Positions 1 through 63,968 of a stretch of DNA of 64,000 nucleotides are shown here, one piece after another; the first letter of the stretch is position 1; each line of letters starts with the position of its first letter. The notes under the pieces were generated by a model. It saw only the letters and a list, made by a program, of their open reading frames with translations. It had not been told where the DNA came from and did not search any database. The stretch covers positions 186,001 to 250,000 of the forward strand of contig JAFCMP010000083.1 in the NCBI GenBank assembly GCA_017506865.1, in the 5' to 3' direction. The position numbers and the translations under genes are program-made. This stretch comes from Tribonema minus. Taxonomy: Eukaryota > Sar > Xanthophyceae > Tribonematales > Tribonemataceae.

Positions 1-795
1 CAGCGGCGCTCTGCTGAACCCTTGCTGAACGATGACTCCTGTCTGATTGAGACCTCTGCGCCAGAGGTTGAAGCAAAAACGCGCGCGCGCGCTCCTCTGA
101 ACCCATCTGCTGCTCGTCGATTGCGCGCGCAACGGCACCGGCACCAAGAGTGTTTATGCGTTGCCTACCAGCTAGGGCTCTGCTTCAGCTGTGTGCCTCC
201 GTATTGTTGACCTGTGCCAGACAACAAACGACGGCGCTACGCTACGCTGCAGCTTCCCCGAGTCTCTCTGCAAAAACTTCACATTCTATTCCGTACGCCC
301 ATTCCCCATCTTCTGCTCGTCGACTGCGCGCGCAGCGGCGCCGGCACCCAGAGCAAGCGGTCGCGCTCGAATAAACTCTCAGCGGCGCTCCGCAGAACCC
401 TTGCCAAAGGACAACCCCTGTCTGAATGAGAACATCTGAAACTTATGTGCCAGAGGCTGGAGCCAGCGCGCACACGCTCTGTTGAACCCATCTGCTGCTC
501 GTCTACTGCGCGCGCAGCGGCGCCGGCACCAAGAGCAAGTGGTCGCGCGCATCGCACCTAGGATAAACTCTCAATGGCACTCCGCTGAACCCTTGCTAAA
601 CGGTAACTCCTCTCTGATAGAGACAATCTAAGATTTGTGTGCCAGAGACTGAAGCACATGCGCAAACGCCCCTTTGAACTATGTTTTACAGTCATTGGAC
701 ACAGTCCACACTGCAGTCACAATCACTGTGTCAGCTGTCCGCTCGTTAGGGGTGGCTTGAAGTGCCCATCCGCCGCCCACCGACTGCGCGCGCAG
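1..795 (+). repeat. Intron with tandem copies of an acceptor plus exon start
   Basis: This is the intron before the first visible exon. Copies of the segment 'ctgcgcgcgcag|cggcgccggcacc' and following exon bases lie at about 107-151, 311-370 and 491-560; the true one is at 784-840. Intervening sequence is also repeated: 1-72, 371-465 and 563-655 are alignable (ctctcagcggcgct... ccagagg). Only the last copy continues into the full exon; the others lose the exon similarity after about 20-60 bases. Confidence 0.85.
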
Positions 796-2368
796 CGGCG
801 CCGGCACCAAGAGCAAGCGGTCGCGCGCGTCGCACCTCGACCGCCACTGGAGCATGCCCAACAAGCTGGTCGACTTCCTGTGCAACCTGCCCAAGACGGC
901 GCAGGCGCTGCCCGTGCGGCCGCTGCGCTGGCTCGTGCGCCAGATCTGGGTCATCCTGGACGAGAAGGTACGGGCAAAAAGCAGATTGGACTTCAGCGTG
1001 GAGTTACACGGCGCAGATGGTGAATTGTTGTCTCCAAGTAGGTGGCCTGCCTGCATCTGTTGTCAATTGCGGTGTAGCAGATCTGGGTCATCCTGAACGA
1101 GAAGGTACGGGCGCGCACGCAGGCGCAATGCGCAGATGGTCAAACACGGTCCCCAAGTAGGCGGCCTCCCTACTTCTATTCTGCGGTGCAACTGTCCGCG
1201 GAGCCTGATGGGAGATGAAAATCCTAACCCTAACCCTAACCCTGACCCTAACCCATGGGGTAGCTTGCGCCGGGTGCTGCATCACCGTGAATGATGTAGT
1301 GCGTCCTTTGCGTAAGGCGCCACTGCTTGCGATAGCGCACGGCAAGAAGTGGCTTTCAGCAACGTTCGCCTAGTGCACTCCTACAGCCCGCCCGTGAAAC
1401 GAGCATTTGTGACTCTAGAGGTAGCTCCACCGCACGCCAAGCGCAGCTTCAACACAACTGTGCTGAGCAATGCAGCCTGGGGCCGCATCCCGGCAATGCT
1501 GCTCACCCCACCTGTCGTTTCACCACCACAGCCAATCACCCACCCCCCGCCGCCGCCGCCGCCGCCGACTGCACAACCGATGGTGCGCGTCCCACCTGTA
1601 ATGAACCTCACCTTGCATGAGCCACGCTCGTGTAACCGCCACCGCCTCCGCCGCCGATGAATGCGCGCCGCCGGCGCAGGAGCGCATGGACGCGATCGAC
1701 GACTTTGAGGACTCATAATGCGTGTGTGCAAGCGCGCGCGCACGCGTGCGTGTGTGCGTATGAGTGTGTGTATGCGTGTACTTAACCCCCACCGCTGGCA
1801 CCGACTGCATGCCGCAGAGGGAAGCCCGGCTGCACCAATGACTGACCATCATCGCTCACCGGCACACTGAGCACACGCTGTTGTGATATGTTTGTTTCGA
1901 GAGGCACCACCGCTCGCTCACCGGCACACTGAGCACACGCTGTTGTGATATGTTTGTTTCGAGAGGCACCACCGTTTGCGAGCGCGCACGGAGGGTGCCG
2001 CGCCAGCGAGAGTTGATGCATAGCAACAATTGCCCCCCGCGTTCCCCCAACCTGTCCGTGATGCACTTGCGGACGACAATGGAGGTGGCGCTGTCGCACG
2101 CGGAGCGCAGCTTCAGCACAACTGTGCTGAGCAATGCAGCCCAAGCGCCGCATCTCTGCCGATGCTGCTCACCCCACCTGTTGTGAACCTCATGTTTCAT
2201 CATCCACGGCTCACTTGCCACAGCCGCCAGCCCACCAACCCCTGCCGCCGCTGGCAACCGCGCACCCCAATGCTGCTGATTCCACTGCAACAGAAGTAAG
2301 CGTCACCCCTGGCCCGCGCGGCGCCACCGCCGGGGCGGACAGAGCGTGCGTGCGTGCATGCGCGCGCA

Positions 2369-2399
<31 letters not shown>

Positions 2400-5300
2400 G
2401 TCTTTGCATGCGTGTATTCAACCCCCGCCACCGCTGCCGCTGATGAACGCGCGCCGCCGGCGCAGAAGCGCGTGGACGCGGTCGACGACTTTGAGGGGAC
2501 CGAATGCGTGTGTGTGCACGCGCGCGCACGCGTGCGTGCGTGTGTGTGCGTGCGTGTGTGTGTGTGTGTGCACGTATGCGAGTATTTAACTAACCCCCAC
2601 CGCTGGCACCGACTGCATGCCGCCGACGCAGGAGCGCGTGGACGCGATCGACGACTTTGAGGGGCAGCCGCCGCAGACCATGGGCGACTTCATGATCGAG
2701 CTGTACCTGCGCTGGCACGGCCTGCGGCAGGAGGCGGAGCTCGCGTTGTACGTCCTGCTGGTCGCCATCAAGGCGCACTACCAGCGCTCCACCGCGGTGC
2801 ACACGTTCGCGCGCCTGCTCGACCTGCTCAACGAGGTGCGCGAGTGTGGCACCGATTGATTATGGTTGTGTATCATGAGAAGCTGAGCATCACTGCCGTG
2901 CACACGTTCGCGCGCCTGCTCGACCCGCTCAACGAGGTGCGCGGTCGGTGGCGCGGAGCGTAGGCAACCACTAGTGGTGTGTGTTGCTGATTGGTTCTAG
3001 TCATATGTGTTTGAGAAGCTGAGCATCACCGCCGGGCACACGTTCGCGCGCCTGCTCGACCTGCTCAACGAGGTAAGTGAGCGGCGCCGCGGAGCGTACG
3101 CAATCCCTTGACTGATAAATGGTCATGTAATTATTGACAAGCTGAGCATCACCGCCGTGAACACACCTGCTCAGCGAGGCGCACGGTACCGCGGAGCGTT
3201 TGCAATCTTGTCACTGGTGATTGTATGTTGCCAGTCTCTAGCTGCGCACCACCTTGAACAACACCTGTCAAGATGTAGGACAGGGAGTGTTGAGTTCAAC
3301 CGCTTGTACGACTGACAACAGCTGCAAATGTCGACCACTTCACGGTAGGTTTGGCAGCAGCCAGTACAGTTCTGAAGCTTAGCCGGAGAGCAATCGTTCA
3401 TGAGTCCGAACGTGGTCACAAACTGCAGCTATACACTTGCAAGACAACACGACAAACCATCGCTATTTACTTGTAAGACAAACGCACAAAAAGTCAACAA
3501 TACCTACCTACCTACACCCGCCCCATCACGCGCGGCGTCTCACCTGCCGGAGGGGCTAGCATGTGGCATTCACGCGTGCTCATAGACTACCCGAGAAACA
3601 AGAATTAGCACAGTACATAAACAGCGCGCTCTGCCTCCGACACGCGCACACACGACCGCACCGCACGCCGCACCGCACCTCAGCTGCAGGCACTCATACG
3701 TGCTCATAGACCACTCAAAAAGTAACACAATGCACAAACAGCGCATGCTGCCTCCAACACGCGCGCGCACGCACCCGCACCGCGCGCCGCTCCGCACCGT
3801 AGCTGCCGGACGCGAACCTTACACATGCTCATACGCTTCAGTACCCAAGAAGTAAGGCAGTGCATGAACAGCGCGCGCTACCTCCCTCATGCGCGCACAC
3901 GACCGCACCGTACACCGCACCCCGCATCTCAGCTGCCAGACGACCAAGACGTTGCGGACAAGGAGTCGAGCTCGCCCAGGCGGCGCGAGGGGAACCTCAC
4001 CGCCACCAGGTCCATGGCCTCCGGGCTGTCGGCGTCGGAGCGCGAGAGGCGCCTGGCCGAAGAGAAGGACGAGGATGATGTCAGACCCAACTACACGTGA
4101 GAGCGAGAGGAGCGTCCCTGTGTCTTGAAGTTACGCAAGAGTCTGGAAGGAAGTCTCGAAGCTCCGCAAGAAAATAGAAGTACTCCGAAGTATAACTTTA
4201 GCGTGCTGCCAAAGAACCCCAGAACTTTCTGACAATGCGTCGGAGCGCGAGAGGCGGCTGGCGGAGGAGAAGGACGAGGAGGACGTCAGACCGAACTACA
4301 CGTGAGAGCGAGAGGAGCGTCCCCGTGTCTTGAAGTTCCGCATGGATGTGGTGTGGTGCAAGTATCGAAGTTTCGCAAGCATACGAACTACACGTGCGTC
4401 CCCTGTTTTGCAGTTGCACAAGAACGTGGAAGCCTCGCAGTTTCAACCAAGGATGTCATTTGAGGGTGCTGCCAACGGACATCGGCACTTTTTGACAGAG
4501 ATGCAGGTGCTGAACACCTGGAGTGAATATGACGACTCTTTTGATTATCGCACACTATGGATGTGCCGATTGCGTCAAGCGGAAGGGGAGTATCATCATG
4601 CTTTTCAACACAGGAGCTTGCAGCAGCAGGGACGAGGCGCGCAGCCCCGCTGCGCGCCAGGCGCGACGCGCGTCGCACGTCGCGCGTTCTGCGGCAAACA
4701 CCTTGCGCTGTAGTACGCGCCAGCCTCGCTGCGCAGCAGTCCTGCGAGCGATGCCACACTGAACTCGTCAGCTGCAGCCGGTGGACGCTGCACCGCCCCG
4801 CAGCTGCCTCACCTACGCTTCCTCTCTCGCTTCCCCCCCCCCCCTCTCCCTCTCTCTCTGCGCGCGTGCGTGCGCGCCGCAGCCACCTCGATGTCGCATT
4901 CCTGCAGGTCCTCCTCTTCGCGCGGCGCCGCCTGCTCAAGCGCGCCAAACTCGACGTCGGCCGCATGCGCAAGAAGGAGCGCGAGGCCGCCGCCGCCGCC
5001 GCCACCGCCGCTGCCGCCGCCGCCGCCGCGCCGCCGTCGCCGCCGCCGCCGGACGCCGCGGACGGCGGCAACGACGACAGCTCCATCGGGGCAGCCTCGG
5101 GTGCGTCTTGAGAGCTCGTGATCTCTGTCGAGCATTCGGTAAGGCCCGGGTTAGGGTTAGGGTTAGATGCATGCGGCATGCCTCTGGACCTTTGACGTGC
5201 CCCCCCCCCCCCCCACCCTCCCCAATTGGTGGTGCTGACACCTGCGGCAGCACTCAGCAGCAGCGTCCGCGGTCGTCAGCCACATTGCTCAGCAGCTGTG

Positions 5301-10634: not shown

Positions 10635-13600
10635 CTACTGCTCCAGGCGGTGCTGGGCGCTGACGCCGTGCTGAGCAGCAGCTGCGGCAGTAGCGCTGGA
10701 GTGGCCGGCGTGGTGCGCCGGCGTCGACAGCGGCGGCAGCGCAAAGAGCGCCGCGCTGCCCTTGCCCTCCACGACCTGGGGGTAGGGGCAGAGGGTGCGA
10801 AGGGGGGGTATACCGCTTAGCTGACCTGAGGGGGGATGCATGCCCCTTGCTCTTGACGATGGGGGGTGACCGGGCAGGGGGCGCCAGGGGGGTGCGTCGC
10901 TGAGTGGCGGTTGAGGCAGCATGTGAGGCATGCTCTCTCTGAAGGGAGGCGGCTGGCAGCAGCAAAGTATGCACGACCAAGGTGCTACGAAAACACATCA
11001 GTGGACTTGAGGATGAGCAGTTCTTCACAGCATTCTGCTTTACTCGAGCTACATACAGCACTGGGCACGGCTGCGCTGCCCTTCTCTCGGGGTATATCAA
11101 GTCAGGCACTGGGGCGCATTCACGAGGCAGCGTTCGAGGTACGCCCATCAGATACTATCATACTACACCACACCGCACCACGCAAGCGACACGCATGTTC
11201 GCTGATGGACGCCACGCCACCACCACCAGCAACGCTCAGCAACAGACACCCACCTCAATAGACGTCGTGTCGAGCGCCTGCGAGCGCGGCTGCGACCATC
11301 CGAGGCTCGCGCGGTGCGCGGCGGCGACGGCACCGGTGCCGCCGGCCTGCGCCCCCTGTTGAGCGCTGCTCCTGCTGGCCAGCGCGCTGACGCTCAGCAG
11401 CAGGCTCGCGCGCAGCGCCTCAGCGTGCGCCTTGGCGCGGTCTTGCAGCTCTGTCACCGGGAACTCCTGTTGTGCGCGCCGGGGGGGGGGGGGGGGGGGG
11501 GGGGGGCGCATCAGATGAGCGCTGTGGTTGGTGGTCGCTAGCTTTGTGGCTCCTGCTTGCAACTGCAGCGAGGGCGGAGCGCGTTGTCGCAGTCCCTGCA
11601 GCGCGCTCCGAGCCCTCCTCTCACGCCACCGAACTTCTGTACTTGAAGTATGTGAGTAAAAAGCACCCCTGCAGTACTCCTCTGACAGCGGGCAGAACAC
11701 TTCCAAGCGCATCTATGGTACGTGCAATACGCCACGTGCAACACGCTGCATTCACCGCGAAGTCATTGGCCGCATCCACTGAGGACGAGAATGCACTGTC
11801 GAGCGATGCAACCACCAGCCGCCACTCCCGTCATTCGCTCCTCTCATCAAACCAAACTTCGGTGTATGTAGATGCAAAGTACCTCTTAGGTACTCCTCCG
11901 ACAGCACATGAGACATGTCCAAACGTGTCGACATGCCCATTACAGCGCGAGGTCATCAGCCGCCTTCACCGACGCCGTAGATGCGCTGTTGAGCGATGCC
12001 ACCACCACATGTAGATACAACATGTACTTCGAAATACTTGAAAGTACTCTTCTGACAGCGCACACAAGACAATTCCAAGCGCACCTCATAAACGTGTAAT
12101 ATGCTACTGCTGCATGTACTATGCTGCATGCCTCACCGCAAGATCGTCGGCCGCTTCCACCGAAGCCGTGGGTGCGCTGTTGAGCGATGCCACCACCGTA
12201 TGTAGACGCAAATATGTACTTCAAAGCACTCTTCTGACAGCGCACACAAAACACTTCATACTGTTTGATATGCTATTGCTGCGTGTAATGTACCGCAAGC
12301 GTCATCGGAAGATCATCCGCCGCCTCCACCAAAGCCGTGGACGCGCTGTTGAGCGATGCCACCACCACCGCCATCCGCTCCTCTCAAAACACCAAACTTC
12401 TGTGCGTGTAGATGCAAAGTACCTCTGGCATACTCCTTTGACACCACATGCGATATGTCCAAGCGTCATATACCGCGAGCCTCACCGCGAGGTCATCTGC
12501 TGCCTCCACCGACGCCGTGGACGCGCTGTCGAGCGACGCCACGACCACCGGCCCCGTCTCGTTGGCCCGGCTCGTGCCGCTGCTGCCGCCCACCGTCGTC
12601 TCCGAGAGGTTGACGCCCGTGCCTATCTCATACGACTGCTCGCTGATGGAGGCGTTGACGGTGAGCTGCTGCAGCGCCTCGCCCGTGGGCAGCTTGCGCC
12701 GCGCGAGCTTGCGGTTGCGCATGGTCGCCAGGTCTGCGGAGCGTCGCGCGAGGTAAAGTTCAATTCGTGGAAGTGGTGCGCACAATCGTGGCAATGGCGT
12801 AAGCAGATGAGCTGCTGCAGCGCCTCGCCCGTGGGCAGCTCGCGCCGCGCGAGCTTGCGGTCGTGCATGGTCGCCTGGTCTGCGGAGCGTCACGCGCGCG
12901 CACAGTGCAAGTTCAACATTTCGAAGTACTTAAAGAAGTGCACACGGCCGTGGTGACGTGCGCACGACGTCGGGCATGCGGGTAGGGGCATCTGTTTGCA
13001 GCTTGCTTGCGCCGCGCGAGCTTGCGGTTGCACACTGTCGCCACGTCCGTGGAGCATCACCCACCGCAAACAAAGTCCGCAGGCGTTGAAGAAATGCACA
13101 CATGCGGGTGACGCGCGCAGCCAGGCGGTCACTGTCTGGCGACATTTCCAATTCTCACGAGCAGTTGACGTGCACGTCCAGATGGATAGGTACGTATGGA
13201 AATGACGTCATGTCCGCGTTGAAGTTGCACATAGCCATTTCTTCAACACTGAAGTGCACGCCGAGATGGGGTGGGTACACGAAGCTTCTGGCACCCCCCC
13301 TCGCCGGCCTCAAACAACTGCTTGCTGCTACCGGCGGGCGACGGCGAGGTGCTGCGGAGCCTTGCTCGTCGACGGCGGCCGGGCGCTACGTACCATGAGC
13401 GTGCGGGTGCGCATGACGGCCGATTCCGTGGGCATGCTAGCGCCGACGCGAGCCCAGGCGCTGCAGCCTACCAGCTGCGAAGGCAGCAGCGCCTTGCACG
13501 GCAGCGATGGGCACTGCTGCTCGCTCTCCGGTAGCGTGCTGCGATTGCGCGTGCACACAGCGCGCGACTGCCGTACTTCCGACGCAGTCGCTGTGCATCC

Positions 13601-16600: not shown

Positions 16601-19600
16601 GAGCGCGAGCTTCTTAAGCAGGTTCTCCTCGCGGAACTTGACGATGTTCGCGGCGACCTCCTGGGGGAGCTCGTGGGGCTCCTGCGAGGCGCACGGCAGC
16701 AGCAGCGCTCAGTATTGAAGTTGCAACGTGAAGTGCGTGCGTATACCTACCTCTGTTGAAGCTGATGCAGTTGAGCATACAGGCAGAGGCGCGTCAACTG
16801 CTGCGCTGGTTCACACAGCTCTGAGGTAGTGTGCCCTGAGTTGACGAGCCTGAAGCTACATTTGAGGCACAACTGCTACTGCAATTCTACCACCTGCCTC
16901 ATGTGCACCAATGAAAAACGCATAGTTAGGCGCCAAGATCCTGCCGTGCCGCGGGCACGCGGCAGACCGACGCAAACCGCGGCAAAGGCGTGTGCGCTGC
17001 TGAGCGTTGCGCACGCTCGAACCTCGTGTGCAATGTTGAACTTCCATCTACTTCACAAAACAGGACGCCCCCGCTGAACTGCAGGAGCGCAACTAGAGTG
17101 TCCAGGGCAGAGGGTTGCGTGAAGTACAAAATTGAGGTTGTGGGGGGGGCGAACGTGCTGCACATCCACACACACACACCTTGTTGCGCGTCGCAGAGCT
17201 GATCCACGGGTGGTGCTGCGCCTCCGCCGCCGTCATGCGCTCGCGCGGGTTGCGCACCAGCAGCCGCTTGATGAAGCTGCGGGATGAAGACACAGGACAA
17301 GACCACAAACGTCAACATCATACAACCACTCTTCAACATTGTCACCACGTCCGAAGTGGAGCGCGGCGGGAAGCGACGGAGAATGTCGGGTGCAGGTGCG
17401 GCGGTGCGCAGCGCGCCGGCAGCGCAGCGCGATGCACGCTCACTGGAGCATGCAAAAAGTGCAATCCTGGACCTGAGCCAGCAACCCCTAGTCGTACGCA
17501 GCAGCTCTCGCTGCCGTCCAGCGGCGCACTTGGAGCGTATCTACATGGCGCTAGGTGCCCATCGGACAAATGCGCACGAAAGCGCGTAGCACGGCGATGC
17601 GAGTAGCTCAAGTGTCTGTTGAGCAGGCGCAGAGGGAGCACAGCCATCGGAGCGCTGGGCACTCACTTTTTTGCCAGCGGCGAGATGTGCCGCCAAGCCT
17701 TCTCGTGGAACTGGTACGTGCCGTGCTGCGCGCAGCGAGTGGAACAGCGGTGACAGCAAAGTGCGGTTACGTGTGATCACGACAGAAGGGTGCCTGCGCT
17801 CTGCTGCGTGCAGATCTGAGTGACGAGGCCCCATCTGTGAGCTGCTGGCGCAATTCTGCTCTGAAGTTCTTGCCAGGTGCTGCAACATCAGACTGCGGTA
17901 CAGGTGCACCCGCACGTATACATATGGCAGTCAATACACTGGACACACAAGCGGCGCTGAACCGTGAGATGCGACAAAGATGCACTGCCGCACACTACCT
18001 GTAGGTACGATGTGCAGTGCAACCGCACCTGTGTGCTCAACGGGTAAGGCATGACACGCTTGCGAGTCATGCATGTGCTACTTGAAGTAGTACAGCACTG
18101 CGGAGCGCTGCCTCTCACCCGTATTTGCCGCGTGTGCTCCTCGCGCGTGCTGCCGTTTTCAACTACACTTCAAGTACTTGAAGTTGTACTACTTCAAGTA
18201 CTTGAAGTAGTTCAGAACCGTTGAGCACTGCCTCTCACCCGTATTTGCCACGTGAGCTCCTCGCGCGTGCTGCCGAGGAACGGTGGGTAGCCGCACAGCA
18301 GCAGGTACGCGATCACGCCGATGCTCCACATGTCGCACGCCGTGGGGTAGTGCGACCCCCCTATCACCTCGGGAGCCATGTAGATCTGGCGAGCGCAAGA
18401 AGGCGGGCAGCACACAGCTAGGTGGTGAACTTCAAAAGCAGCAGTGCCGTGCGCGGGGAAGGGCTCAACTGATCAGACAGATTCGGCGCTTGATCATGGG
18501 CTGATCTGATCTGGGGGCTGAACGCTGCCTCAATACTTACCCTAACCTCAAACCCTCAAACAGCCAACAGTCACCGCCCGAGATCTGTGATTGCTACACC
18601 TTCATCCATGTATCAGAACAGGTGGCAGTGAATGGCGTGAGGAGGCGTGTATGTGTTCATGCCATCATTATAATAGTTGCCGCCAACGTTGACAGCGCAG
18701 TGACCGCAGATGGACCGCTCATGCGCGTGCTTGCTGCTCTACGTCGGGCGAATTACGCCGCTGCACGTGCTACTGAAGAAAAACTCGAGAGCGACGGGCC
18801 ATGACATGTTCAAATTCAAGAAGAAGAAAGAGTGTTCATAAAACGCGAAATGTACCTCAACATACCGGTACTAGTACACAGATCCCTGGAGTTGCTGCGC
18901 TACACACTGCGAGCTCGTTCTTGCGCAAAAGCAACATGGCCGTCATCATCCATCAAACAATTGCTACTTCCGATTAGAACTTCCAGGAGTGACTCACCCA
19001 TGTGCCGACCACGTCGTGCTGCAACTCCGACTCGCTAAAGTGGCATGACAACCCGAAGCTGTGATGGCAAGAGAGGGGGGGGGGGCAATGCGCTGCGCAT
19101 CAGAAACAACTCCCAGGGAATGGAGCACGGTGGCATACTGAGGAGCGCAGGGTCACTTCATACTTAAAGTTGAGAGGAGCCACATCGCAGGGAATGGTGG
19201 CTCGGTTGCCCCAAATGTACTGCGTGTGCTCAATCGCTGCACACATTGCAATCCGCAGTACGGTTTTGTATCATTCCACAGTTGGCTATTTCAGGCAAGG
19301 GTGTTGGACCAAGTGATGTTAGAGAGTTGTTAATGAATATGTGTGCGCACCCATGCTCTATTTGGCCATTTCAGGCAACAGACAGCAGCTGGCCCCCATC
19401 CCGTGTTGTCAAAGGCTCACATATTGCCGCATGTGCTTGTGTAGAGGATGGTTCATTGTCAAGGGCATTGAGCGCTGCCGTCACGATGGTGATGCGAAGA
19501 GCGGAAATTCAGGAGGTCCAGGACAGCCACTGCGAGTGTGATGGTCCCGTGCTGGTGTCCCACAATACTTCAGCCACGGTGGAAGTGACTGTCCAAGAAC

Positions 19601-22600
19601 ACACACGCGCGTCAATGTCGCCTCCAGGGCAATATGTGAGCAAGCCTTGGGGGATGCTACGTAGAAAAATGCACGGTAGAGCCCCGTCCTCTGTACTGTC
19701 AAACAGCCGCCAACAACGGTGTACTGTCAGCATGTGTGACCACTCACTCTACTAGCTAACCCTAGCCCTACTTGGCACTCACTCGTCGAGCAGCTTTAAG
19801 TACCAGCCGCCACCGCGACAATATCATGGCGCAAGAACGCGCATACCTCGAAGTATTTTATTCAACGAAAGGCAGAATTGCAAGTTATGATCTTGGTTGC
19901 CGACAGCCTCCGACGGCAACATCCGTTTACATGATCAGATACCGCCCAGAGCATACAGCACCAGGACCGCGTCCTACGACTCGTTGACTCACTCGACGAG
20001 CTTGATCTCCGCGTCCACGCCTCTGTGCTCGCGCACGATGTTGTCGAGTTTCAGATCGCGGTGCTGAGGACACAGCATAGGGCAGAGCGGGGCACGCATA
20101 GTAGCGCTCAGTAAGTAAGTGCTCGTGTCAGTGATCAGCGCTCGCTTGCAACTCACACACGCAGGCCTATCTGAGAGGGCAGAGCGGAGTGCAGCCAGCG
20201 GGTATAATCAGTGTTCACGAATCACCAGATCGTAGAGCTCAAGGTGACAAGGTGTGGTTAGTCGCCCATGCTTTCCACCAATAACCGTGATCGCCACTGC
20301 TGCAGCTATCGGCCACGAGGCAAACAGTGCCACCAAATAATCTATGTCGCGAAGCCTGTGCCCCAGACGATGCAGATGCCGATGCACATTCCAACATGCA
20401 ACAAAAGATGCTGCACGCGGTAAAACTCACGCAACAGCGCTCAGCTTCAAGTCACGCGACTCACCGCGATGCTGCGGTCGTGGCAGTAGCGTATTGCGTT
20501 GATGACGCTCTTCACAATATCCGCCGCCTGCGCGCGCGGGCAGAGACAGGCAGTGCTCAGAACAGGGGAAACGCCGCCTATCAGACGGCGCAGGAATGCG
20601 AAGGCGCATGCACGTGCGCAGTGCAGATCACGCACGGCACTGATGGGCGCGCATGCGCTCAGAGGCAAGCGCACTTGAAGCGGCGATCGTGGTAAGCGCA
20701 CCGATCACGGAGTGCTCGAAGAGCGGTGACAGCACCCTGATCTAGTGAATGAACCATGCGCGCTTTTGGTCTTTGAAATTCATATGTGACGCTCGCTGCA
20801 CTAGCTACTGCATGTGGGTCATGCACCAGGCATAAGCATTCTGAAGGCAGACAGTTACAGAGGCATGCTGTGGGAGCAGTTGTGATGGGTCCCCCCAACC
20901 AGGCCCGCTCCCCCCCCCCCCCCCCCCCCCCCCCTACTTGCTCGCCGCCTGCAGCGCAGCGGCCGTCGGCGGTACCGCTAGAGTATGCGTTCACAATGAA
21001 GGCGGGCGGGGGGTGTGCCAATGATCAGGTGCACCTGCCAACTTCAACTTCAGAACTTCAGTCGAATCTCGTCAACGCACGCAATGGAACGTCACGCGCG
21101 CGGTGAGTGAGGCCTGAAAGGCCGAAGCCCCGCCCAATCGTGAGCGTGCGCACTCAATGCGATGCCACACGCCTGTGCCAGGCTGGCTGGCGGTGCCAAC
21201 GTGCCCCCTTGCGAGCTGCGGCGACTCAATTACTCACCGCGTCCTCCGAGTGAAACTTGTAGGACTGCATGAGGTTGCCGCCCGTGCACAGGTCCATGAC
21301 CAGGAACAGGTAGCTCGGCGTCTGGTAGACCTCCTGGAGCCGCACAATGTTGGGGTGGTCTGAAACGGCGCAGCAGCAGCAGCAGCAGCAGCAGCGTGAT
21401 GAGATAACAGCAGCGGCGTGTGGCGTCTTAGGCCCATCGCTGGGCCTGGCCGCGGTCCGCGCGGCGCTTGCAGCGACGCTCAGCGGTGGAGGCGCGCCGC
21501 AGCGCGCCACGGCGCAGCACTTTCTTCTACGTGCGCGCGCCTATCAGAGCGCCTGCTGCGAAGCGCAGCGCGTTTCATGCACGCGACGAGCGCCTCGCTG
21601 TGCACGTGTGCCGAACAGGATGCGGCGCACGGGCGTCACGGCACGCCGCGCTTTTGAGCCGCGAGGCTCAGCTCACACGTCCGTGACAAGTGCATGGCAA
21701 GAGCGCATGACGGGAGTTACCGCAAACAGGCGCCGTTCGCGCTGCGCGTCGAGTGGCGCGCGTTACAGCACCTCGTGTATGATTCGGCCAACAAGTGCGC
21801 GGCTCACAGGCGCCATATGTGCTGCGCAGCGGGACAGTGAGGCGCGAGAGTCACGCGCAGCAGCGGCGGCGGCAGCGGCGGCGGCAGCAGCGCTCACCGA
21901 GGTTCTTCATGACCTCCACCTCCTTCATGATGTTGTCGAAGCTCTTCTCGTCGCGCACGCGGCTCAAAGGAGCGAATTGCACTAAATGAAAAACGAATCA
22001 AAAAGATCGTTGAGCTCAACATGATGCGCTGCAAGAGGCCCAACTCACCGAGATTTTTCATCACCTCCACCTCCTTCATGATGTTGTCGAAGCTCTTCTT
22101 GTCGCGCACGCGGCTCAGCTCCACCATCTTGAGCGCGTAGCGCTCGCCCGACGCGCGGTGCGTGATGACCTGGACCTTGCCAAAGCAGCCCTGACAGCAG
22201 CGACGATGCGACAGTGCAGCGCGCGCGGCGTGAGGATGCGATGGAAAAGGCGCGAAGCAGTCTGACAGCGACGATACGGCAGTGCGGCGCGTGCGCTGTG
22301 AGGACGCGAGGGAAAGAGGCACGAAGCAGCCCTGACAGCGGCGACAACGATACGGCGGTACGGCGCGCGCGGCGTGAGGATGCGAGGGAAAGAGGCGCGA
22401 AGCAGTCCTGACAGCAACGATACGGCAGTGCGGCGCGTGCCTTGAGGATCAAGATACGGGTGTGAGGAGAACACGCGCGCGCAACGCAGCGCAGAACTGA
22501 GGCGCAGGGCGTCTGGAGCGTCGCCATTGAAGCTGGAATCGTGTGGCGTGATTGATCCGCTGGTGCGCGCGTTGGCGCGTGAGCCCTGCTGCTTAGGGTT

Positions 22601-30100: not shown

Positions 30101-33100
30101 GCCTGTCCAAACTTCAACACTGTCATACCCAAACTTCAACGCTGTCATACACGCGCAACATACCTACCCCCGCCCCCGTGCCGCAGCGCTTGCTCACCTT
30201 GAGCTCGTCCGCGGACGCGTTGGTGCCGACCGTGAGCTCTCAGGATGAGGAATGGGTGGAAGTTAGAACTACGGGAAGTTAAGGCTGAAGTTGCAGTTCA
30301 GCCTAGTGATGGCGACGCTCACCTTGAGCTCGTCCGCGGACGCGTTGGTGCCGACCGTGAGCTCGAGGTCATCCACGGAGATGGTGCCGTTCTGGTCGTA
30401 GTCGAGCCTGTCAAAGGCCAGCTTCAGGCGCTGCTCGTCCAGCTTGCGGCGGCTCATGCACGCCGCGATGAAGCCGTTGAGCGACACGGCGCCGCTGCCG
30501 TCCACGTCCACGGCATCGAAAATGTCCTGGGGGGGGGGGGGGGGGGGGGGATTTCACATCAGAGTGCGTGCGTACAGTGTCACGAGGTTTACTCACCAGA
30601 CCTGAGGGGGGTGGGGGGTAACTCACATGAGTGCGTGCGTACAGTCACGAGCCACGAGGTATACTGACCAGAGAGGTCGCGGGTGCGCGACGGGGGAAGG
30701 AAAAAGATGCCTGGCGCGACGCCATGGCAGTTCTGTGTTCACGATAAATTCTGGCTCATGCTGTACACTTGACCACTCAATTTCGGCGCGTCGAGAAAGA
30801 CGCTTTCGCCGCGCGCGCACCGACGCCGCACGGCCGCAGCTTGCGCCACACACAAAGCGGCCTGCTCTGGAGCGTAATATGCATGAATGCTTTCAAGCCT
30901 GCGGAACGTGAGAGTGCCATGCTGCAACACGCACATGGCCGTTCAGCCTCGTGGCAAAAGCACGTCACCCGGAGTACACCACGCCCAAGTGGTGTGCAGT
31001 GAATGAACACAGTGCCACACCATGCGCGTGAGGCGCGTATGAGCACGGACGCAAATTGCTTCGCGTCAGATGCCACATCGGACAACCACGACACGCGGTT
31101 TCAGCTGCTGCATCTGGACACCAATTGTGTCGTATGAAATGCCATTGGACACGCACGACACACAGGTCAGTTGCGGCAACTATCAGCTGCTGCGCAGCGC
31201 TGCGCACCTGCAGCTTCTCGGGCGCGATGCTGCCGCGCCGGAACAGCACGCTCTGGCGGCCGTTGCCGCGCGTCATCTTGAGGGAGCTGGGGTCGATGCC
31301 GCTGCTGCCGTCGCCGAGCGCGCGCTTGAGCAGCACCTTGAGATCCGCCATGGTGATCACGCCGGCGTTCTGGCTGTCGGCCTGCGGGGGGTGTGCGTGC
31401 GCGCGCGCAGAAGCGGATGCGGAGCGTTGTGTCACTGAGATGGAGCGTCGAGCGTGCTTTGCTGGCGTTGACTGCAGTGGGGTTATTGAAGTTCACGTCG
31501 GCTCAGTGGGGTTATTGAAGTTGACGTAGGCTCTGCTGCGATGGTGTCTTGAGGGTGACGAGCAACATGTGCTGCGCAGAGGCCACGTGCTGACGTCACA
31601 CATGCACGTCACACCTGCGCGCCCCCCCCCCCCCCCCCCCCCCATTCCACCTCGGTGGTGAACTCGCGCTCGAGGGTATGCTTCACACGTCAGCGGTGCA
31701 AATGCTCCGCGCGGCAGCGGCGCGTAGCACAACATTCGGCATGTTTGTTGCATATGATGTACACATACTGCGTTGATGACGCTCAATATTATTGCAAGCG
31801 CCCGAACCCGACCGTACTTCCCCCCCAACCCCCCCCCCCCCCCCCCCCCCCCCCGGATTTAGCCACCCCACCCCAGTGCTCACCTTGGCAAACTCCCGCT
31901 CCAGCTCGCGGACCTGGTCGTCCTCCATGGCGCGCGCGACCGTCTTGAGCGCAAGCTTCTTGAGCAGCTTGGCATTCTGGAACTTGAGGATGTTCGCCGC
32001 GACCTCCGCCGACAGCGGCGCGTCCGCCTGCGATCGTGGGCAAATGTGATTTCTATTTGAATTCTCGCCCGGGGTGCGGAAAACCGCAGATGATTTACAT
32101 CCGAGCATGCGAAGGTGCAGTATTAGTAATAGAATTGGCAGAGGATATGGGTGATGAACAGCAGCAGCACGTCCACCGGCTTGTGTACTTTTCATCGAGT
32201 CTCGCTTGGGGCGCGAAGAAGCCCAGATGATGGATGCCCAGCTTGCTACCAGAACCCACGCGCGTCTCGTGAACACGTGACAGTGTCCCAGTGCGCGCTG
32301 AGAATGATCACTTGCATACGTTGCAGTCACACAGTGAGAGGAGTCACAGTCGTCGCCGCAGCGACGTGCGCTCGCCTGAGAGGCGGACGCACAGCATGGT
32401 CGTGCCTTCGAGCTGATGGCAAGCACGCGGCACTGGCGCCTGCAGCGTCAGCTTCAGATAGCAAATGCACGCACCTGGGAGATTGATTGACTGCGCAACA
32501 CAGCAGGCAGGCACGCGCGCGGCAAAAGCAGCGCTTGCCGGCTGCAGCATGAGATGAGCCAGACAAACCCAAACAGACGCGGTGCCGAGACTCTGGCCCA
32601 ACCCTAACCCTAAATCTGAAGCTGTCATGGGCCTTAGCGTCCAGGTACCATGCGCAGTTAGAGCACACGCGCGCGAGCAACCAACGCGCAGAAATGTGCC
32701 ACCGAGTACGCCAGCGACGCTCACCAGCTCCTTGGCGCAGGTGCTGATCCACGGGTGGTGCTGAGCCTCCGCCGCGGTCATGCGCTCCTGGGGGTTGCGC
32801 ACCAGCAGGCGCGTGATGAAGCTGGGAGGCGGTCAAGAGGGGGGGGGGGGGGGGGGGGGAGATGCTCAATTGACTGACTCATGAATGAAGTGAACAGTAC
32901 AGCATGGGGGGGGGCGCGTGATGAAGCTGGGCGCCGGTGAGGGGGGGAGGCAAGCGGGAGAGGCAAGATGCTCGATCAACTTATTCATAAATCATCCACC
33001 ATGCAGTCAGCGCTTACGATGTTGCCAACGAAGCGCCAGCGCTATGTATAGCAGCGCGCTCGTCAGGCCTGCCACGTTTCGAGCTCGCGAGCCACACGCC

Positions 33101-36100
33101 TGTTCTGAAGCAGCAGCGGCGGTGCTGTCGTTGACCGACTGCAGCGCACCGGCTTTTGATGGGGCCAGCAGGGCTCAGGGCCCAGCAAATGGAGCACTGT
33201 GCCCGCAGAATCAGCAATCTGACTACCACCATCATTTTCCGTACTTTGATTGCTGTGTCATATGATGCTCATTGCGTTCTACTAGCGGATTTGTCGAATA
33301 GCAGTTCGGTGTGTGGCCAGAGAGGGCATATGCGAGCGTGCGCAAGGCCGCCACACGGCTGCGCTCCTAACCCTAACCCTAACCCTAACCCTAACCCTAA
33401 CCCTAACCCTAACCCTAACCTAGCCCTAACCCTAACCTAGCCCTGATGTGGCAGGCCTCGCAACTCGCTTCCGGAAGGCGAGCGCATGGCGCGACACCAC
33501 AGCAATTGAGCACTGACCTCTTGGCCAGTGGCGTGATGTGCCTCCAGGCGCTGTCGTGGAACTTGTAGGTGCCGTGCTGTGAGGGGGGAAGGGGGGGGGG
33601 GAGCAAGGGGAGGGGGGTAAGAGGGTGTGAAAAAGGTGGCAGCTGAAGTGTGAGGCGCGCGTCCCGGCTCTCGTAGCGAGACGGCCGCTCTGCATAGTCA
33701 CGTACTGCAACATGTCACTTCTTTTCCGCTCACGAGCATCTGCCACTTGTCTTGTCGCGCGTCTCGGCGGGTTGAAATACACTTGAAGTACTGGAAGGAA
33801 TGCAGTACGGGGGCGCTACCTCTCACCCGGATCTGCCACTTGAGCTTGTTCTGCGTCTCGCCGTTTTAAACTCCGCCATTTTGAACTACTGTACTTCAAG
33901 TATTTGAAGTAGTGTGACACAGCAGAGCACACACTGTCGCTCACCCGGATCTGCCACTTGAGCTTGTCGCGCCTCTCACCGTGTTGAACTACGTCTCACC
34001 GTGTTCAACTACACTTCAAGTACATGAAGTAGCATGACATTGCGCAGCGCTGCCTCTCACCCGGATCTGCCACTTGAGCTTGTCGCGCGTCTCGCCGGAG
34101 AACGGAGGGTAGCCGCACAGCAGCAGGTACGCGATGACGCCGATGCTCCACATGTCGCACGCCGTGGGGAAGTGCGACCCCCCTATCACCTCAGGCGCCA
34201 TGTAGATCTGGCGAGCGCAAGAGAGGGGGCAGCATCGACAGTCAGGGCGCGGGGGGGCGGGGGGGGGGGGGGGAGAGAACCTATGGTGAGGATGCGGCAC
34301 TCGTGTGACGGCGACGGTTGGCTGTGAATCGTTGCGTCGCCAGAGGTAAGCATGCATGCCTACATGTGCTGCTTCAAGTTCTGATATTTTGGTTTAGATG
34401 AGGACCTGAGGGATCGACAGCGGGCCACTTTTGCTTCATGTAATTCGCAACTGATAAGCGCTCATCCCCGCCAACTGCATCGTGCACGTAGCTTTGCAGT
34501 GCGGTGGCGTGCTGTGCAAGTGCGCTTCAAACAGGTCAGCTCGCGTCCAAAAATCCGAGCCTTGATGCTCCAGTGAACTGTAGTGTGTACTTGACAGTGT
34601 ACTCAGAGAAACGCGGATCGACACGACGCGGTACCATTGTGTACGGAGCGGGGACGTTTTGGAAGGATGCTGAGCGCTATCAGCAGCTGCAGCGAACGCG
34701 TAACATGGCAGCAGTGTGCATGTCAAGAGTCGAAAGCGCTCTCGTACCCTCTACAATCGACGCAGCAGCAGCAGCAGCAGCACGACTTCAAGTAGCACTT
34801 CAAGTAGCAGTCCAAGAGTGACTCACCCACGTGCCGACCACGTCGTGCTCCAGCTGAGCCTCCGTGTAGTGGCAGGACAGCCCAAAGCTGCAAGCGGCGA
34901 GCAACGGCAGCACACAGCATCGCTCAGGACCAGTGACTGCCATGCGCTCGCACACAGCACGTGATGGAGCGCAGAGCTCCCAGTCCGACGTCGCGCTACC
35001 CCCGGAAACGCCGCCAAACATGCTGGCGCACCCCTGCTGCACTCGCGCCCTGGGCGCACAGCTGGCCCACGCCGGCCAGTGCGCGACGCGCATGCTAACC
35101 CTTACCCCAATTATGACCGTCCTGATCACCGTGCGCGCTCTGCACGCTCTGCGGACGTCTCTCCTGTACCGCCGTCCGTTGTGCAGCAAGTGTATACGTA
35201 TCAACAAAACAAGGCCGATCTCCATGAGCGCTGACGCAACGAGCTTGGACTCCGCTGACCGGCGAGCAACCCTAACCCTAACCCTAACCCTAACCCTAAC
35301 CTGCGCGCGCCACCTGCTCACTCGACGCTGACTACTGTAGTGCTTGACATGCTGAGCCCTGCTCTGCTTTTGCGGTGCGCTACGATGGTGTGAGCGCACA
35401 CGCTAGCCCTAGTCTGAGCCTAGCCCTAGTTAGAGCACTCACTCGGCAAGCTTGACCTCTGCGCACGGTAATCCTAGCCGAACCCTAGCCCAAGCTAGAG
35501 CACTCACTCGGCAAGCTTGACCTCTGCGCACGCTAATCCTAGCCTAACCCTAGCCCTAGTTAGAACACTCACTCGACGAGCTTGACCTCCGCGTCGGGCC
35601 CGTTGTGCTCGTATACAATGTTGTCCAGCTTCAGGTCGCGGTGCTGAGAACACAAGGGCAGGTCAGGGCGGGACACACACAGCAGTGCTCAGTTAGTACT
35701 CCTCTTGTCAAAGCTCAGCGCTCGCGTGCAGTCCACAAACACAGGCCTATCTGCCGTCGAGCTTCAGGTCGCGATGCTGAGGACACACAGGGCACGGCAA
35801 GACGGGCGCACGTGGCAGTGTTCAGTCAGTGTTCAAGCCAGTGCTCAAAGTCAGTGCTTGAGGCCGCAGTGCTGCGGGTCATTGTGTGCACATGCACTCC
35901 AAGAGTAGGATTAGGGTTAGGGTCAGGCATGCAGACGCGTGCGCACCGGCGGCGACAGCGGGCGCGGCGCGAGCCAGCGGGCGCAGGGCCAGCCGCAACG
36001 GGAGCGCAGCGCAACGACGCGCATGTGAACTCTGACATGGCCCTTGCGCCTTGATCTGTGCGGCAAGAGGGTGCCGTGCTGCGAATTACTCTGTGCCAGC

Positions 36101-44783: not shown

Positions 44784-47700
44784 CTACAGTGAGCTGCTCT
44801 CCGAGGCGGCATAGGCGGCCTGTCTGGAGTCGGACGATGGCGGCGGCGGCGTCAGCGGCGGCGGCGGCGGCGGCGCCTGCGCGTCGGCGTGCACGCTCTC
44901 GCCGAGCGCAAAGAACAGCAGCGCGCTGGCGGCGTACATGGACGACACGCTGTAGAGGAGGATCGTCTGTGCAGGGCGGGCAGGGAGCGGCACGGCAGCA
45001 GCGGCGCGACATCAGCGCGCTACGACATGGCGGTTGCGAGACAATAACGGTGCTGTCGCACAACGCAGAGAGTAGCGGCGCGGCGCTGACAGCGCTATGT
45101 CGACCATGTCGGGGGAAATATGCTGCTGCGCGAAACAGTGTGTGCTGCCTGCGGCGCGGGCGGGCAGGTAGTGGGAAGCGGCATGACCACAGCCACTGAC
45201 GCCGGGAGCTGCCGCGCTGCGGTGCAGCAAGCGCCGAGTGTGTGCGTGCTGTCACTCTGTCCCAATTGCAATCGTCCAGCTTTATGCACTGTTGCTACAT
45301 AATGGTGAACGGTATGCACCCAAACTGCACACATGGGTCACCACATAAGTCATGATGGATTCTTGTTACATTCGAACATCGGCTCCTGAGCGTAGTGTCC
45401 CACACAACACCATGGCGCCTCAACCGCCACATGAGCGGCGCACGCAACGCCTTTGATGAACGTGATGGCACTGTGAAAGATTGGGCTTGTGCGCGCTTCG
45501 GAGCATGAACGCGCTCAACATCCGCAAGCAGCGCCCCCACGCAAAGTGCGGTACACGGTTCGTGCTAGACTTTGTTGAGTGCAGCAGGCCATCAGACACC
45601 TTTGCTGTGCTGCACTTAACGTTCATGCCCCAAATACTTGCAACAAAAATGCAGACCTAAATGTTCAAGAAGCAGAGCTTGGAGGAGCATCGTACCTCTG
45701 TTGACAAACAATGTCACGGTTTCACAAAAGCACCGCCCTCGCAACCAGCAATCTTGCCAGGGCAGTAGGGCCCTGCCACACCCTGTGCTCTCCCTGTGCA
45801 TGTACCCGCAAACAACAGGAGGGGGTTGCAACCCCGCAGAAGCAGCGGCTTCACACAGATCTATAAGCTTGTCTGCAGCATTTGGCTACTGACTCCCATT
45901 TGTAGGCTAACAGAATCAGTTATGGTGGGCTGCAGATTGCCAGATGACGTACTGACGGCACGCACGCAAACGCCTGCAAACCCTCCGCGCACGCCACCGC
46001 TCACGCAGACCCGCACAGCCACGTCATGCGCAGCTGCAATGCTCACCTGTAGCGGGTAGGTGGAGGCCAGGGAGCCTATGAGCAGCGGCGCGAGGTTGCC
46101 CACCGCCGTCATGACGGAGAACAGCCCCTGCGCGGTGCCCCTGACTTCAACAGGCAGAGCACCCTGCAGCGAGGCGTTCACGTGCATGGAAGCGTGGCAA
46201 TGAGAGTGGTTCTGCATTGTGTCACATCATTACAAACTAATAACTCTTGATGTAGCAAGCGTTACATTGATTTTTTGCCCCAAGCTGGCATGTGTAGAGC
46301 TAAATTCACCTTCAAGTGGAGCGGTTTCTGAGAGCACAGGGAAGTCTTCAAAACAAAAGGATGGGCAGCTTGCTCGCTTGCTGAGCATCATCACAGCGCG
46401 GCTGCTGATCATCGTCACCACGGGGCCGGGTAGGCTAGCAAAATGAGTAGTCGGCACAGGCGATCATTCATGTGATTGTCGTCTCTCTTGCATGCATGCC
46501 ATGCTGGAGCAAGCCTGCGCAAAAGAGTACATCATCAGATGTGACGGTGAGAGGGCTTTTGGCTGACCAGCATATGCGTTTGATGGCGCTTAGAGTTATG
46601 TAGGGGTCAGGGTTATCCTGACCCTAGCCCCAATGCTAACCCTCACCCTAACCCTAACCCTGACCGCTGCACAGCGCGCGCGCTGAGCGTGTGCGTGCCG
46701 CTCGTGCGCAGGGCCACGCAGCGTGCCAAACCTCACACCTTCCAACCTATGTACTTCAACTTAAAGTTCAGGCGGACTGCCGCGTGCCCCGCGCGCACTC
46801 GCCTGCAGCACCGCGACCGTCGGCCCCAACCCATATACTGCGAAATATGTACTTTCACTTGAAGTTCAAACAACGGATCGCGCGCTCACGCACTCGCCTG
46901 CAGCACCGCGACCGTCGGCCCCAACCTATACACTGCGAAGTATGTACTCTCACTTGAACTTCAAACAATGAATCGCACGCCCCGCGCACTCGCCTGCAGC
47001 ACCGCGACCGCCGGCCCAAACCCATATACTGCGAAAGCATCTACTTTAACTTGAAGTTCAAACAACGAACCGCGCGCACGCGCGCTCGCCTGCAGCACCG
47101 CGACCGTCGGCCCGAACCAGCACTCCGCTAGCACGTACTTGAGGAGGAGGCACGTCATGCCAACAGCAGCACATGCTTGCAACCAGGTGACGCTATCCCG
47201 TCGTGCCATCACGTGTGCGCGCGCGCTCGCGTGCTGCGTACGCGCATGAGATGGCCACCAAGGCTCAACTTCAAATTACCAACCTCAACTTGAAGTTCAA
47301 ACGGAACGGGCGCCCGCACTCGCCTGCAGCACCGCGACCGTCGGCCCGAACCAGCACTCCGCCAGCACGTACTTGAGGAAGAGGCACGTCATGGCGAGGC
47401 CGAAGTCGCCGCAGTTGACCGTCCCGACCCACATGGGCACCGCCAGCAGGGAGCCCGCCATGGGGACCCACGCGCGGAAGCGCGGGTCGCGCGCGCCGAA
47501 GGCGTCGCTGACGTACCCCCCGGCGACGGCGCTGGCGGCGCGGCGCGGCGCGGATGGGAGAGCATTGTTAGCGTCATTGGCGCAGCTAGAAGAGTGCGGC
47601 GGCGGAAGTTGGGTGCACGGCCAGTGCGTGCGTAGCGGGGCGAAAGTGTCTATACTAGTTTGCCATCCTCATCTCAATCCACATAGGCGTTGCCCGCACG

Positions 47701-50700: not shown

Positions 50701-53700
50701 GTCCGCGAGCATCGTGTACGCCGCCGGCGTTGTGAATGCCTGAGAGGACAGTGCAGGTGGCAGAAGCGCAGTGTGAGCTGCGACGCTGATCGCGCAGAGC
50801 GCTGCCGCGCCTGTAGACATTGGAGGGCGGAGGTTCGGTCCTACGCCGTCGGCTAGCGGACGCCGCGGCATGAGGCACGTTGCGTGCAGCGCCATGTACT
50901 TGCCTGATCTCTCGATAGCTCGTACCCGCTGCAGGAAGGCGCTCATCCGCGAGAGCTGCTATGGTGGCTGCCGCAGGCCTGCGCGCGCGCCTTGTCCACC
51001 CGCACCGCCGGTACCGTTACCACGTGCTGCGCGTGTGCGCATGATGCAGTTCGATGTATAGCATACAGGACCGCATAGCTTGCCATCTCTTTAACACTTG
51101 CGCACTCGCGTCAACACATTCGAGAGTCGCACCGAGGCGTGCTGGTCACTGGTCAACGCCGCGGCGCAAGCATCCGTCATCATGAGGCGTTTTGCCGCGG
51201 ACTGCGTGCTGTTACCACGAGAGCGGTGTACCGCTTTGCGCACGTATGAGCAGGCGTGCCGTCCATCAGTGCACACGATTCTCCGTTGGCGCGTGGGGCA
51301 TGCTGAGATGCTCTCAGCACATGGCACGTCCGTGACACGCCACTGCGACTGCCGGTTTCGGTCAGCGCAGCTGAGGCATGCTTGCCTTCCCCCGCACAGG
51401 AACGAGACCACGGGACGACGCACCGCCGCATCGCCTGCTGCACGGGAGCAGCGGCGCCCCCACGATTGCGGGATTGTTTATCGATGGCACCTACAGGGTG
51501 ATCAAACCCTCGGACGCAGCATCCGACAAGTCCTGAGCATCAAATACTTCACAGGTCTTTTTCTGAAGTGTGATGACGACAATACGCAGCGTTCGTGAGC
51601 GACGCCCGCTGGCACACGCGGCGCAAGCTTGACGCGGCAGCGCCCCTGTTGCGCAACGGCCGCGCGCCGCGCGCTGGTACGCGCTCATGCCAGTTGCTCT
51701 GTTCACTTCTTAGTCCGCGACGGCAGCAAACCTTGCAGTGAGGAACTCGTGCAAATGTGTCGGGCGGCGGCGGCGCAAAGCACGTGCAGGGCCCCATGAA
51801 GCCCACCGCGCCGCCCGCGTGCAGCCCTACAGTCGCATTCCACCGCTTGCCAACATCACACTCTACCCTACCTGCACGCAATAAGGAGGCGAAGCCCCAG
51901 TGCACCTCTCGTACACAAGGGCAGGTACACCTGCGTGACGCCCTGCGCAGGATGAGCATGTCCGGCATGCAGCAATGTCCTTTTCCACACGCGGCAGCCG
52001 CTGCACGCCAACAACAATCGCGCTTGCCGCCGCATGGCATTGCCTGAACCACTTCTGCTGGTAGTCGCGGCAGCGCGCGCAGAGCCAGCCTTGAAGGGAT
52101 TGAGTACGGGGCATGACAGCGGCAGCCGCACGCCCGGATCACTTACACCATACTCGCGGGCACTGAGCGCAGAGCCTTGATTGAGTACGGGGCACAACAA
52201 TGGCGGTGGCGGCGGTGGCGGCGGTGCGCGGGTCGCACCTGCGCGACGCCCTGCGCGACGCGCAGCGCGAGGACGTCCGGCAGGCCGCGCGCGAGCCCCT
52301 GCGCCGCCGTCGCCAGCGACCACGCCGCGCACGCCGCGACGGTCGCGCCCTTGCGGCTGAGCGCGTCCACGGCGCGCCCCGCGGCGAGGCTGGACGCGCT
52401 GAAGAGCAGCGTAAAGCCGTAGCTCGCGAGCGCGCCGTACTCGGCGGCGCCGAAGCCGAGCGCCACGTTCATGTAGTCCTGGCGACGGACCGCGGGGGGG
52501 GGGGGGGACGGGAGGGGGGGGGGGGGGGGGGGGGGTGCTGAGGTGTCTGCAGAAGTGCCTACTGCGCGGAGAAGAGGATTGATTTTTTTTCTTTATTGTC
52601 GACAGCACATCTCAGCTTGGTTCAAAACGAAGGACAGAGTACACCGTGTCCGCAGTGCCGACGCTGAATGACGAGCAACAGAGCAGCGCGAGGCCGCAGT
52701 CTGGTAAATAGTTGGCGACGCCTCGAGTGCAATGATCAACGCTCGGTCCTTTTTTCTTACCCGCCAACTGCATGCGCGCGTCACGCTGCAGGCAGCGCAG
52801 CGACGGCGCTGTGTCTGTGTATGAGGCATGGCACGCGTTCAATGATTCTTATACTGCGCTATTCACCAGTGCACTTTATCGAGAGTTTTTCAAAACAGCA
52901 CGATTCACCGGCGCATTGCCCCCCTGTTGGTTGGTTCTGCATCAGGACTCCGCCCCTTGAAACTATACACCACCAAGCCCAGCAACTTTCTGCTTCCTGT
53001 TGTCCGTCCAGCTGCAGCTTATTCTTATATGCAACAAATGGTAAATCAGACAACGAAGCCACATGCCTTGCGCACGTATATGCTCCTTGTCCCGCAGCGC
53101 GAAGTATGCTCCCAGTGCTGATCTGGAGGTTGGATCATGATGAATTTGGTAGTATCAAAAGCAGTTGCCTGCTAATCAAAATTACATGAGGACAGCACAG
53201 ACACGGGCTGCTGACAAAGTCTTTGACTGTGGTAACAAATCTCATGGTATACCACAGCGAGTGTTGAAGTGCAGACATGGTCTAGTACTTTTTATTAATT
53301 CTCGCTCAGGGCGCGAAAAAGCCCAGATGATTGGCATCTAGCTGTAAGAAATCTACGTGTCGTATGACAGTCTGAAAGTGTCGCAACGACAACCACTCAA
53401 ACGCCGCCGCCGCCAAATGGCATCTCGGGGTCTAGTACTTGAATAGCGGCTCCTGTCCCCTCCACCCACATGCAAAACGCACGCACCTTGGCATTCTCCG
53501 TAGTAGCAGGGACATCAAAGTTCACCACGTAGGGTAGCACATTTCTGCTCCACTGGTTGCTGATATACACCACCAGAAGCACACCCAGTGTCACCCAAGC
53601 TGGTGCCTGCACTTGCTCTCCTGCCCCACCATCATGCCCTTCGCTGTTGTCATCGCCAGTCGCACCCAGTTGCAAGTGCTTGTGGGTAGAGCGTCTGCGT

Positions 53701-63511: not shown

Positions 63512-63968
63512 CTAGGCGCACCGTTCGCGCAAAAACTCCGCGGCGTGCGACAGCGACTCCGCGCCGTACGGCAGCTGGTCGTGGCCGAAGAACGCGTGCA
63601 CCGTGCCCTCGTACACGCGGAGCGTCACCTCCGGCGCCGCCGCCGTGCGCGCCGCCGCCGCGAAGCGCTCGATCTCGTCGACGAGGACCTCCGCGGACGC
63701 GAGCGGGATCAGCGTCGGCGGCAGCGCGCGCAGGCGCCACGCCGGCGCCTCGAGCGGCGACGCGCGCCAGTCGCGGCCCGTGACCGCCACCCTCTCGGGG
63801 TCCGGCTTCAGCCCGCCGAGGTACAGGTTCCAGTAGGCGTTCATGAGGTGGCGCGAGAGCAGGTAGCCGCGGGCGAAGCGCGCGTACGAGCCCGTCGGCT
63901 CTGCGCACGCCTGGTGCGAGAGGACGGGGCTGGCGAGCACTGCCGCGCAGAGAGGGGACGCCGTTGCG
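63512..63968 (-). CDS. Second alpha/beta hydrolase paralogue, last exon only (continues past window)
   Basis: A single exon with acceptor CTGCAG at its high end and a TAG stop at 63512-63514. It is 457 nt, the same length and phase as the last exon of the hydrolase at 59187. Shared blocks include SPLCAAVL, PDPERVAVTGRDWRASP and APAWRLRALPPT, with GTVHAFF carrying the catalytic His. The acid position again reads Glu (ASAEVLVDE). The nucleophile and oxyanion exons must lie beyond 64000. The two genes form a head-to-tail tandem pair, separated by about 0.8 kb from this stop to the start of the other gene. Confidence 0.85.

Follow-up and report, generated by a model that had tools for sequence, protein, structure and literature searches.

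The window analyzed here, a 64-kb stretch of the Tribonema minus genome (contig JAFCMP010000083.1), carries introns in which partial copies of the neighbouring exon edge, splice site included, are repeated beside the real junction. These intronic exon-edge copies are real and exceed chance expectation, and similar edge arrays were found on other contigs. Judged from the sequences, the copies somewhat more probably than otherwise arose by tandem duplication across splice junctions and were then overwritten with the exon as template. The sample comprised the window, with a GC content of ~60%, and 260 kb of other stretches (twenty 10-kb stretches, to which twenty 3-kb loci were later added) from one 158-Mb genome in 554 contigs.

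Exon borders were taken from two sources. Comparison of two calcium-dependent-kinase-like genes that lie in tandem on the minus strand, kinase A (~24.4-13.8 kb) and kinase B (~42.3-29.3 kb), gave 12 usable exons per gene, separated by GT donors and AG acceptors. In both genes exon 11 was left out, its borders being unresolved, and exon 1 has an uncertain start. All borders other than those of these 24 exons came from a purpose-built predictor of coding sequence and splice sites, and some of them are likely to be wrong. In rounds one and two, the predictor found 22 of the 24 kinase exons, the same set on which it had been trained. Because recovery dropped to 19/24 and 18/24, iterations 2 and 3 were discarded; the version applied was a once-retrained predictor, to which these recovery figures do not extend, with the kinase exons entered by hand.

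Using a 41-nt probe per junction (36 exon and 5 intron nucleotides), near-copies on the own intron side were detected for 35 of 216 donor edges and 20 of 205 acceptor edges in the full sample, and wrong-side copies for four donors and four acceptors. The preliminary description of the window had donor copies always downstream and acceptor copies always upstream of the real site; this predominance is borne out, while "always" is too strong. Reverse-complement probes found no inverted edge copies in any class in either count, and local repeat pairs were direct in 182 cases and inverted in two. No copy was found of the interior of any of the 68 exons considered (14 short exons excluded). The five example regions named in the preliminary description all yielded copies with the same probe. 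Its figure of about twenty boundaries was too high by the measures used here, which gave 13 window junctions by one criterion and 14 of 106 by another, weaker copies not being hunted. In the 48 mapped pairs, donor copies paired with donors and acceptor copies with acceptors of the same border; in one of 71 pairs (in L010), the two copies bore different labels, one acceptor and one donor. The statement that no exon is wholly duplicated fits the pairs within the window, but elsewhere three of the 71 pairs include a whole predicted exon (90 bp in L010, 49 bp in L011, and 43 bp in L026).

The fixed direction of the copies is an outcome of protein preservation and requires neither a special rule nor a new mechanism. 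After a duplication that includes the exon end and the donor, the protein remains intact only if the first donor is used, so copies come to lie downstream of donors; the mirror-image logic places them upstream of acceptors. Since splicing logic explains it, the direction is not evidence for a new mode of intron growth.

The counts by position along the gene relied on 30-nt windows, for which a near-copy was sought on the intron side of the edge. Such copies were present for 97 of 771 windows at donor edges (12.6%), 55 of 741 at acceptor edges (7.4%), and 184 of 6,728 within introns (2.7%), i.e., an enrichment of 4.6-fold and 2.7-fold over intron windows, respectively. Uniform, neutral duplication produced an edge excess of only 1.4 in simulation. 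At 80 bp into the exon, no copies were found on the donor side (0/443) or the acceptor side (0/417), nor deeper (0/3,089 and 0/3,118), which gives pooled values of 0/3,532 and 0/3,535 for windows at least 80 bp from the edge. Among 119 introns, pairs of at least 88% identity spanned the junction in 16 and were internal only in one; at 82% identity or more, the corresponding numbers were 23 and 4. These pair counts gave an early lead towards duplication targeted at junctions from birth. This candidate was abandoned as the leading explanation, as rewriting of exon parts would itself make junction arrays look young and fresh whole-unit duplications were too few to be counted by place.

The decoy splice sites are mostly intact (GT in 28 of 31 copies, AG in 13 of 17). 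True edge and copy are highly similar on the exon side; at donors, positions +1 to +5 are 94-100% alike, with 65% at +6 and the chance level by about +11, and at acceptors identity falls off beyond about -12. Intact sites of this kind would be expected if selection kept the copies to serve as exon ends, whether decoy or alternative, a very unlikely explanation. The transcript-derived protein of a relative (P0001, 80% identity over 71% of the query) crosses the kinase exon joins with no duplicated edge peptide, as judged by reading the alignment, and the splice motif found in the copies is the one particular to their own gene, which copying would by itself produce. In-frame use of the decoys was likewise rejected: 13 of 31 donor offsets were multiples of three, with ~10 expected. 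An assembly artefact is scarcely credible, because the listed copies differ from their edges by 0-18% and are set in unlike spacers, similar arrays occur on other contigs, and two units are common to the paralogs, which lie ~16 kb apart.

Plain tandem duplication without conversion, in which purifying selection acts on nothing but the real exon, accounts for the direction of the copies and for their limit within the exon, and under it the intron parts, in which both copies drift, should diverge at twice the rate. We regard this explanation as rather improbable. In the test applied, the nearest copy of at least 82% identity was taken for each of 37 junctions; its distance was 65-349 bp in 36 arrays and 952 bp in one. 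The intron part after the real site was compared with its counterpart after the copy, and neutral duplicates simulated at the age implied by the exon part served as the reference. The intron part was worse than neutral divergence permits, given the exon-part match, in 27 of the 37 arrays: 17 were homologous but too diverged, and 10 had no homology above chance. The copies had been described as tandem and decaying, which is true in part; the exon parts tend to decay less than the intron parts and, in two arrays, track the exon of their own gene. One example is kinase B exon 12 (30323..30526, minus strand; border from the paralog comparison), whose donor-edge copy at 30192..30239 is identical at 48 of 48 positions (42 exon and 6 intron; probe match 30193-30233, no mismatches), while the adjacent spacer (30240..30316) shows homology to the stretch after the copy not above chance. 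An older copy of the same edge lies at 30012..30110 (87%; probe match 30016-30056, 5 mismatches). Identity next to an unrelated spacer is hard to reconcile with plain duplication, and the edge excess above the simulated value also argues against it.

Homology of the unit ran on into the intron with z > 2 in 32 of 48 pairs, while 18 of 30 young pairs (at least 88% identity) aligned over less than half of their spacing. As tandem arrays, 27 of the 37 either fit plain duplication or retain homologous intron parts, and 10 do neither. These 10 spacers, with five of 37 that lacked an alignable stretch by another method (one of them, in L026, being homologous in the simulation-based test), would suit repair of staggered breaks near junctions, in which the edge is duplicated by fill-in and unrelated sequence is inserted as filler, leaving the copies as long flanking repeats on either side. 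The spacer of kinase A intron 2 (21967..22043) is also in line with this: it separates exon 2 (22049..22190, minus strand; paralog comparison) from a 74-bp copy of its donor edge (21893..21966, 94.6%) and includes the last ~35 bp, the 3' end, of a dispersed, 5'-shortened element. A 24-mer of this element has 113 exact copies genome-wide (backwards control, 0), and its 5' truncation is variable (loci L028-L042). One spacer of L009 similarly contains a ~65-bp dispersed stretch present at seven other places. Break repair is nevertheless improbable: intron homology is recognizable in 17 arrays, the kinase A intron 2 spacer appears by eye to be homologous over its first ~34 bp to the start of the kinase B intron, and edge repeats of tens of base pairs are long for fill-in, the repeats in Daphnia being termed short (PMC3443670).

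Seven spacers were searched as DNA genome-wide with very common words skipped, so that the two with a dispersed fragment are a lower bound; under the same limit, the other five had no match beyond themselves, apart from one with a match nearby. No inserted sequence common to many introns was found among these seven. Long target-site duplications around mobile inserts were rejected as a source of the repeats, since the end of the dispersed element sits in mid-spacer and five of the seven spacers had no dispersed match. An inverted palindromic pair, ACTTCAAGT/ACTTGAAGT, is found repeatedly in introns, in many cases beside duplicated units, and occurs 16 times in the window (e.g., at 18080-18208, 33781-34021, and 34785-34805). 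It was dropped as a break-point marker, being near the units with no marking of break points shown.

Array-bearing intron positions are common to kinases A and B, the copies lying inside these introns, and two of them allow the divergence of exon and intron parts to be compared within and between genes. In intron 7, exon 7 of kinase A (18239..18385) is accompanied by one copy of its donor edge, unit A2 (18079..18155), and exon 7 of kinase B (34061..34207) by three copies, units B2-B4 (33726..33981), all on the minus strand, with both exons bordered by the paralog comparison. Two of the latter units were hit by the probe for donor 34061, at 33940-33980 (2 mismatches) and 33822-33862 (3 mismatches). 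The unit borders are alike in both arrays as judged by eye. Differences in the exon parts were 0.05 for A1 versus A2, 0.05-0.11 for B1 versus its copies, up to 0.20 among the copies, and 0.22-0.35 between the genes. The intron parts differed by 0.33-0.44 within and 0.35-0.52 between genes, with no clear sorting by gene; B4 was omitted here because its intron part was hardly alignable (0.60-0.70). In intron 12, the sequences that follow the far copy in A and B match at 83% over 76 columns, and for this reason the far-copy unit appears to predate the kinase gene duplication. Its exon part is nevertheless that of its own gene, at 42 of 42 positions in B and 14 of 15 in A (the latter counted by eye). 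An old unit with a gene-specific exon part matches the expectation of overwriting from the exon, and sorting by gene in introns 7 and 12 is not anticipated by plain duplication.

The events may be pictured as follows. Local tandem duplications, from which the copies would originate, appear to be frequent in these genes, and those crossing a border would be tolerated as long as the exon-proximal donor or the last acceptor remains in use. The surplus edge and the splice site it carries would thereby turn into intron; the placement of the copies is observed, and the choice of site follows by inference. The copies are presumably neutral. Afterwards, the exon part of a copy would be rewritten again and again from its own exon; the simplest routes would be gene conversion and one-sided repair synthesis with the exon as template. 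The intron part of the unit would meanwhile drift. The exon, fixed by selection, would serve as the master copy, and the outcome would be young-looking exon edges beside old-looking or unrelated spacers. A wider generalization, in which exons act as master templates that rewrite fragments of themselves in their own introns and introns genome-wide grow by edge copies with working splice sites, is plausible but less likely than not.

Several observations weigh against overwriting. Ten of the 37 arrays fit plain duplication, some having exon parts too short to tell. In the 16 clearly alignable arrays, mismatch was 6.3% in the exon and 14.5% in the intron part, near 1:2 (p = 0.064), and plain duplication is therefore not rejected there; this test used the best local segments, with 88 gap positions in the intron parts and 2 in the exon parts. 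The 65-bp tandem array over the kinase B exon 5 donor (35396..35593, minus strand) has an intron part that is also well kept, which favours plain duplication. The near-copies were picked by similarity, which biases the set toward well-kept exon parts. Base-by-base repeat cover is hardly higher at donors (13.5%, with 7-12% inside introns) and is 9.5% at acceptors, with 8-12% inside introns, although partner copies inflate the intron-interior figures. The stretch after the far copy in kinase B intron 12 also resembles, though less strongly, that after the real donor of A (69%, score 46 vs 80). Inspection by eye suggests that the near spacer of intron 2 in kinase A is ancestral, and hence no single polarity suits all arrays. 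Finally, copies resemble their own locus more than the orthologous copies in their exon parts only, and this concerted pattern is limited to two introns of one gene pair.

Minisatellites and other concerted tandem arrays have units of tens to hundreds of base pairs homogenized by exchange. The arrays described here are similar in unit size and homogenization, but homogenization seems limited to what derives from the exon, which would act as master. Provided that the sample is representative, the genome would hold thousands of arrays, a countable route of intron lengthening with a built-in clock in the contrast of exon and intron parts. The rate at which short homologies adjoining selected sequence are rewritten becomes testable, as does the choice by the splicing machinery of the true site among near-perfect decoys 100-200 bp off.

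Intron growth through duplication across splice junctions, as proposed in the preliminary description, is well supported and recurs on other contigs. Its presentation as undescribed or little described needs qualification, as a duplication crossing an intron-exon border produced a new intron in one potato RdRp gene (PMC4974935), the nearest precedent encountered, and tandem duplication and break repair are among seven proposed mechanisms of intron gain (PMC3443670). The potato case shares with ours a local duplication over the border and splice signals inherited from the parent border, whereas here an existing intron is enlarged, no new intron or exon arises in the kinase genes, and copies recur in arrays. 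The break-repair introns of Daphnia (PMC3443670) also have direct repeats around inserted DNA, but these are short, while the repeats here are edge repeats of tens of base pairs at junctions of existing introns, with spacers that are often homologous. Introners (PMC9860276) likewise alter many introns of one genome by a single kind of process; in our sample no common inserted sequence was found, and each copy comes from its own exon edge. Among the open-licence papers listed by the literature searches, judged by title and opening of the abstract, none was seen to describe exon-edge arrays within introns that stay in step with their exon, and the passages considered from PMC4974935 and PMC3443670 do not describe such arrays in existing introns. 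What looks new is the abundance of the copies and the concerted behaviour of their exon parts.

The window holds further arrays. A predicted exon of a plus-strand gene (2632..2835; predictor border, donor after 2835) is followed by copies of its donor edge at 2900-2940 (1 mismatch in 41) and 3036-3076 (2 in 41), the probe being cut one base early. The spacer motif CTGAGCATCACCGCCG occurs in this 2.9-3.2 kb array at 3019-3034 and 3142-3157 and seven times genome-wide, five of them outside the window. On the minus strand, three diverged copies of donor edge 12486 lie within 11941..12341 (7-9 mismatches in 41), and an 89-bp copy of acceptor edge 12733 at 12808..12896 (94%). Four copies of donor edge 47320, ~96 bp apart with 1-5 mismatches in 41, occupy 46794..47121; the minus-strand gene with this array may be the MFS-like gene described below.

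The best named relatives of kinase B are from stramenopiles, e.g., Ectocarpus, Hapterophycus, and Chrysoparadoxa, with one transcriptome protein ranking above them, which by itself would make an ochrophyte-type alga the probable host. Weak matches were obtained to EF-hand on the plus strand at 7.4 kb (under the curated cut-off) and to MFS_1 on the minus strand at 52.1-52.6 kb (under the cut-off), and the window also contains an FtsJ-like exon and an Abhydrolase_3 exon. A direct repeat of 79% identity links 59262-59631 and 63587-63956, ~4.3 kb apart; it probably represents two tandem Abhydrolase_3 genes, the second place alone having been scanned for families. Telomere-like CCTAAC/AACCCT repeats are located at 1223-1254, 33366-33437, and 35268-35301, and the telomere-like 9-mer CTAACCCTA was present on either strand in 16 of the 27 loci L001-L027, of which L004 and L005 overlap the window. 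C runs occur just upstream of kinase B acceptors (e.g., 30530-30550) and elsewhere, and CCCCCCCCC is among the most over-represented 9-mers.

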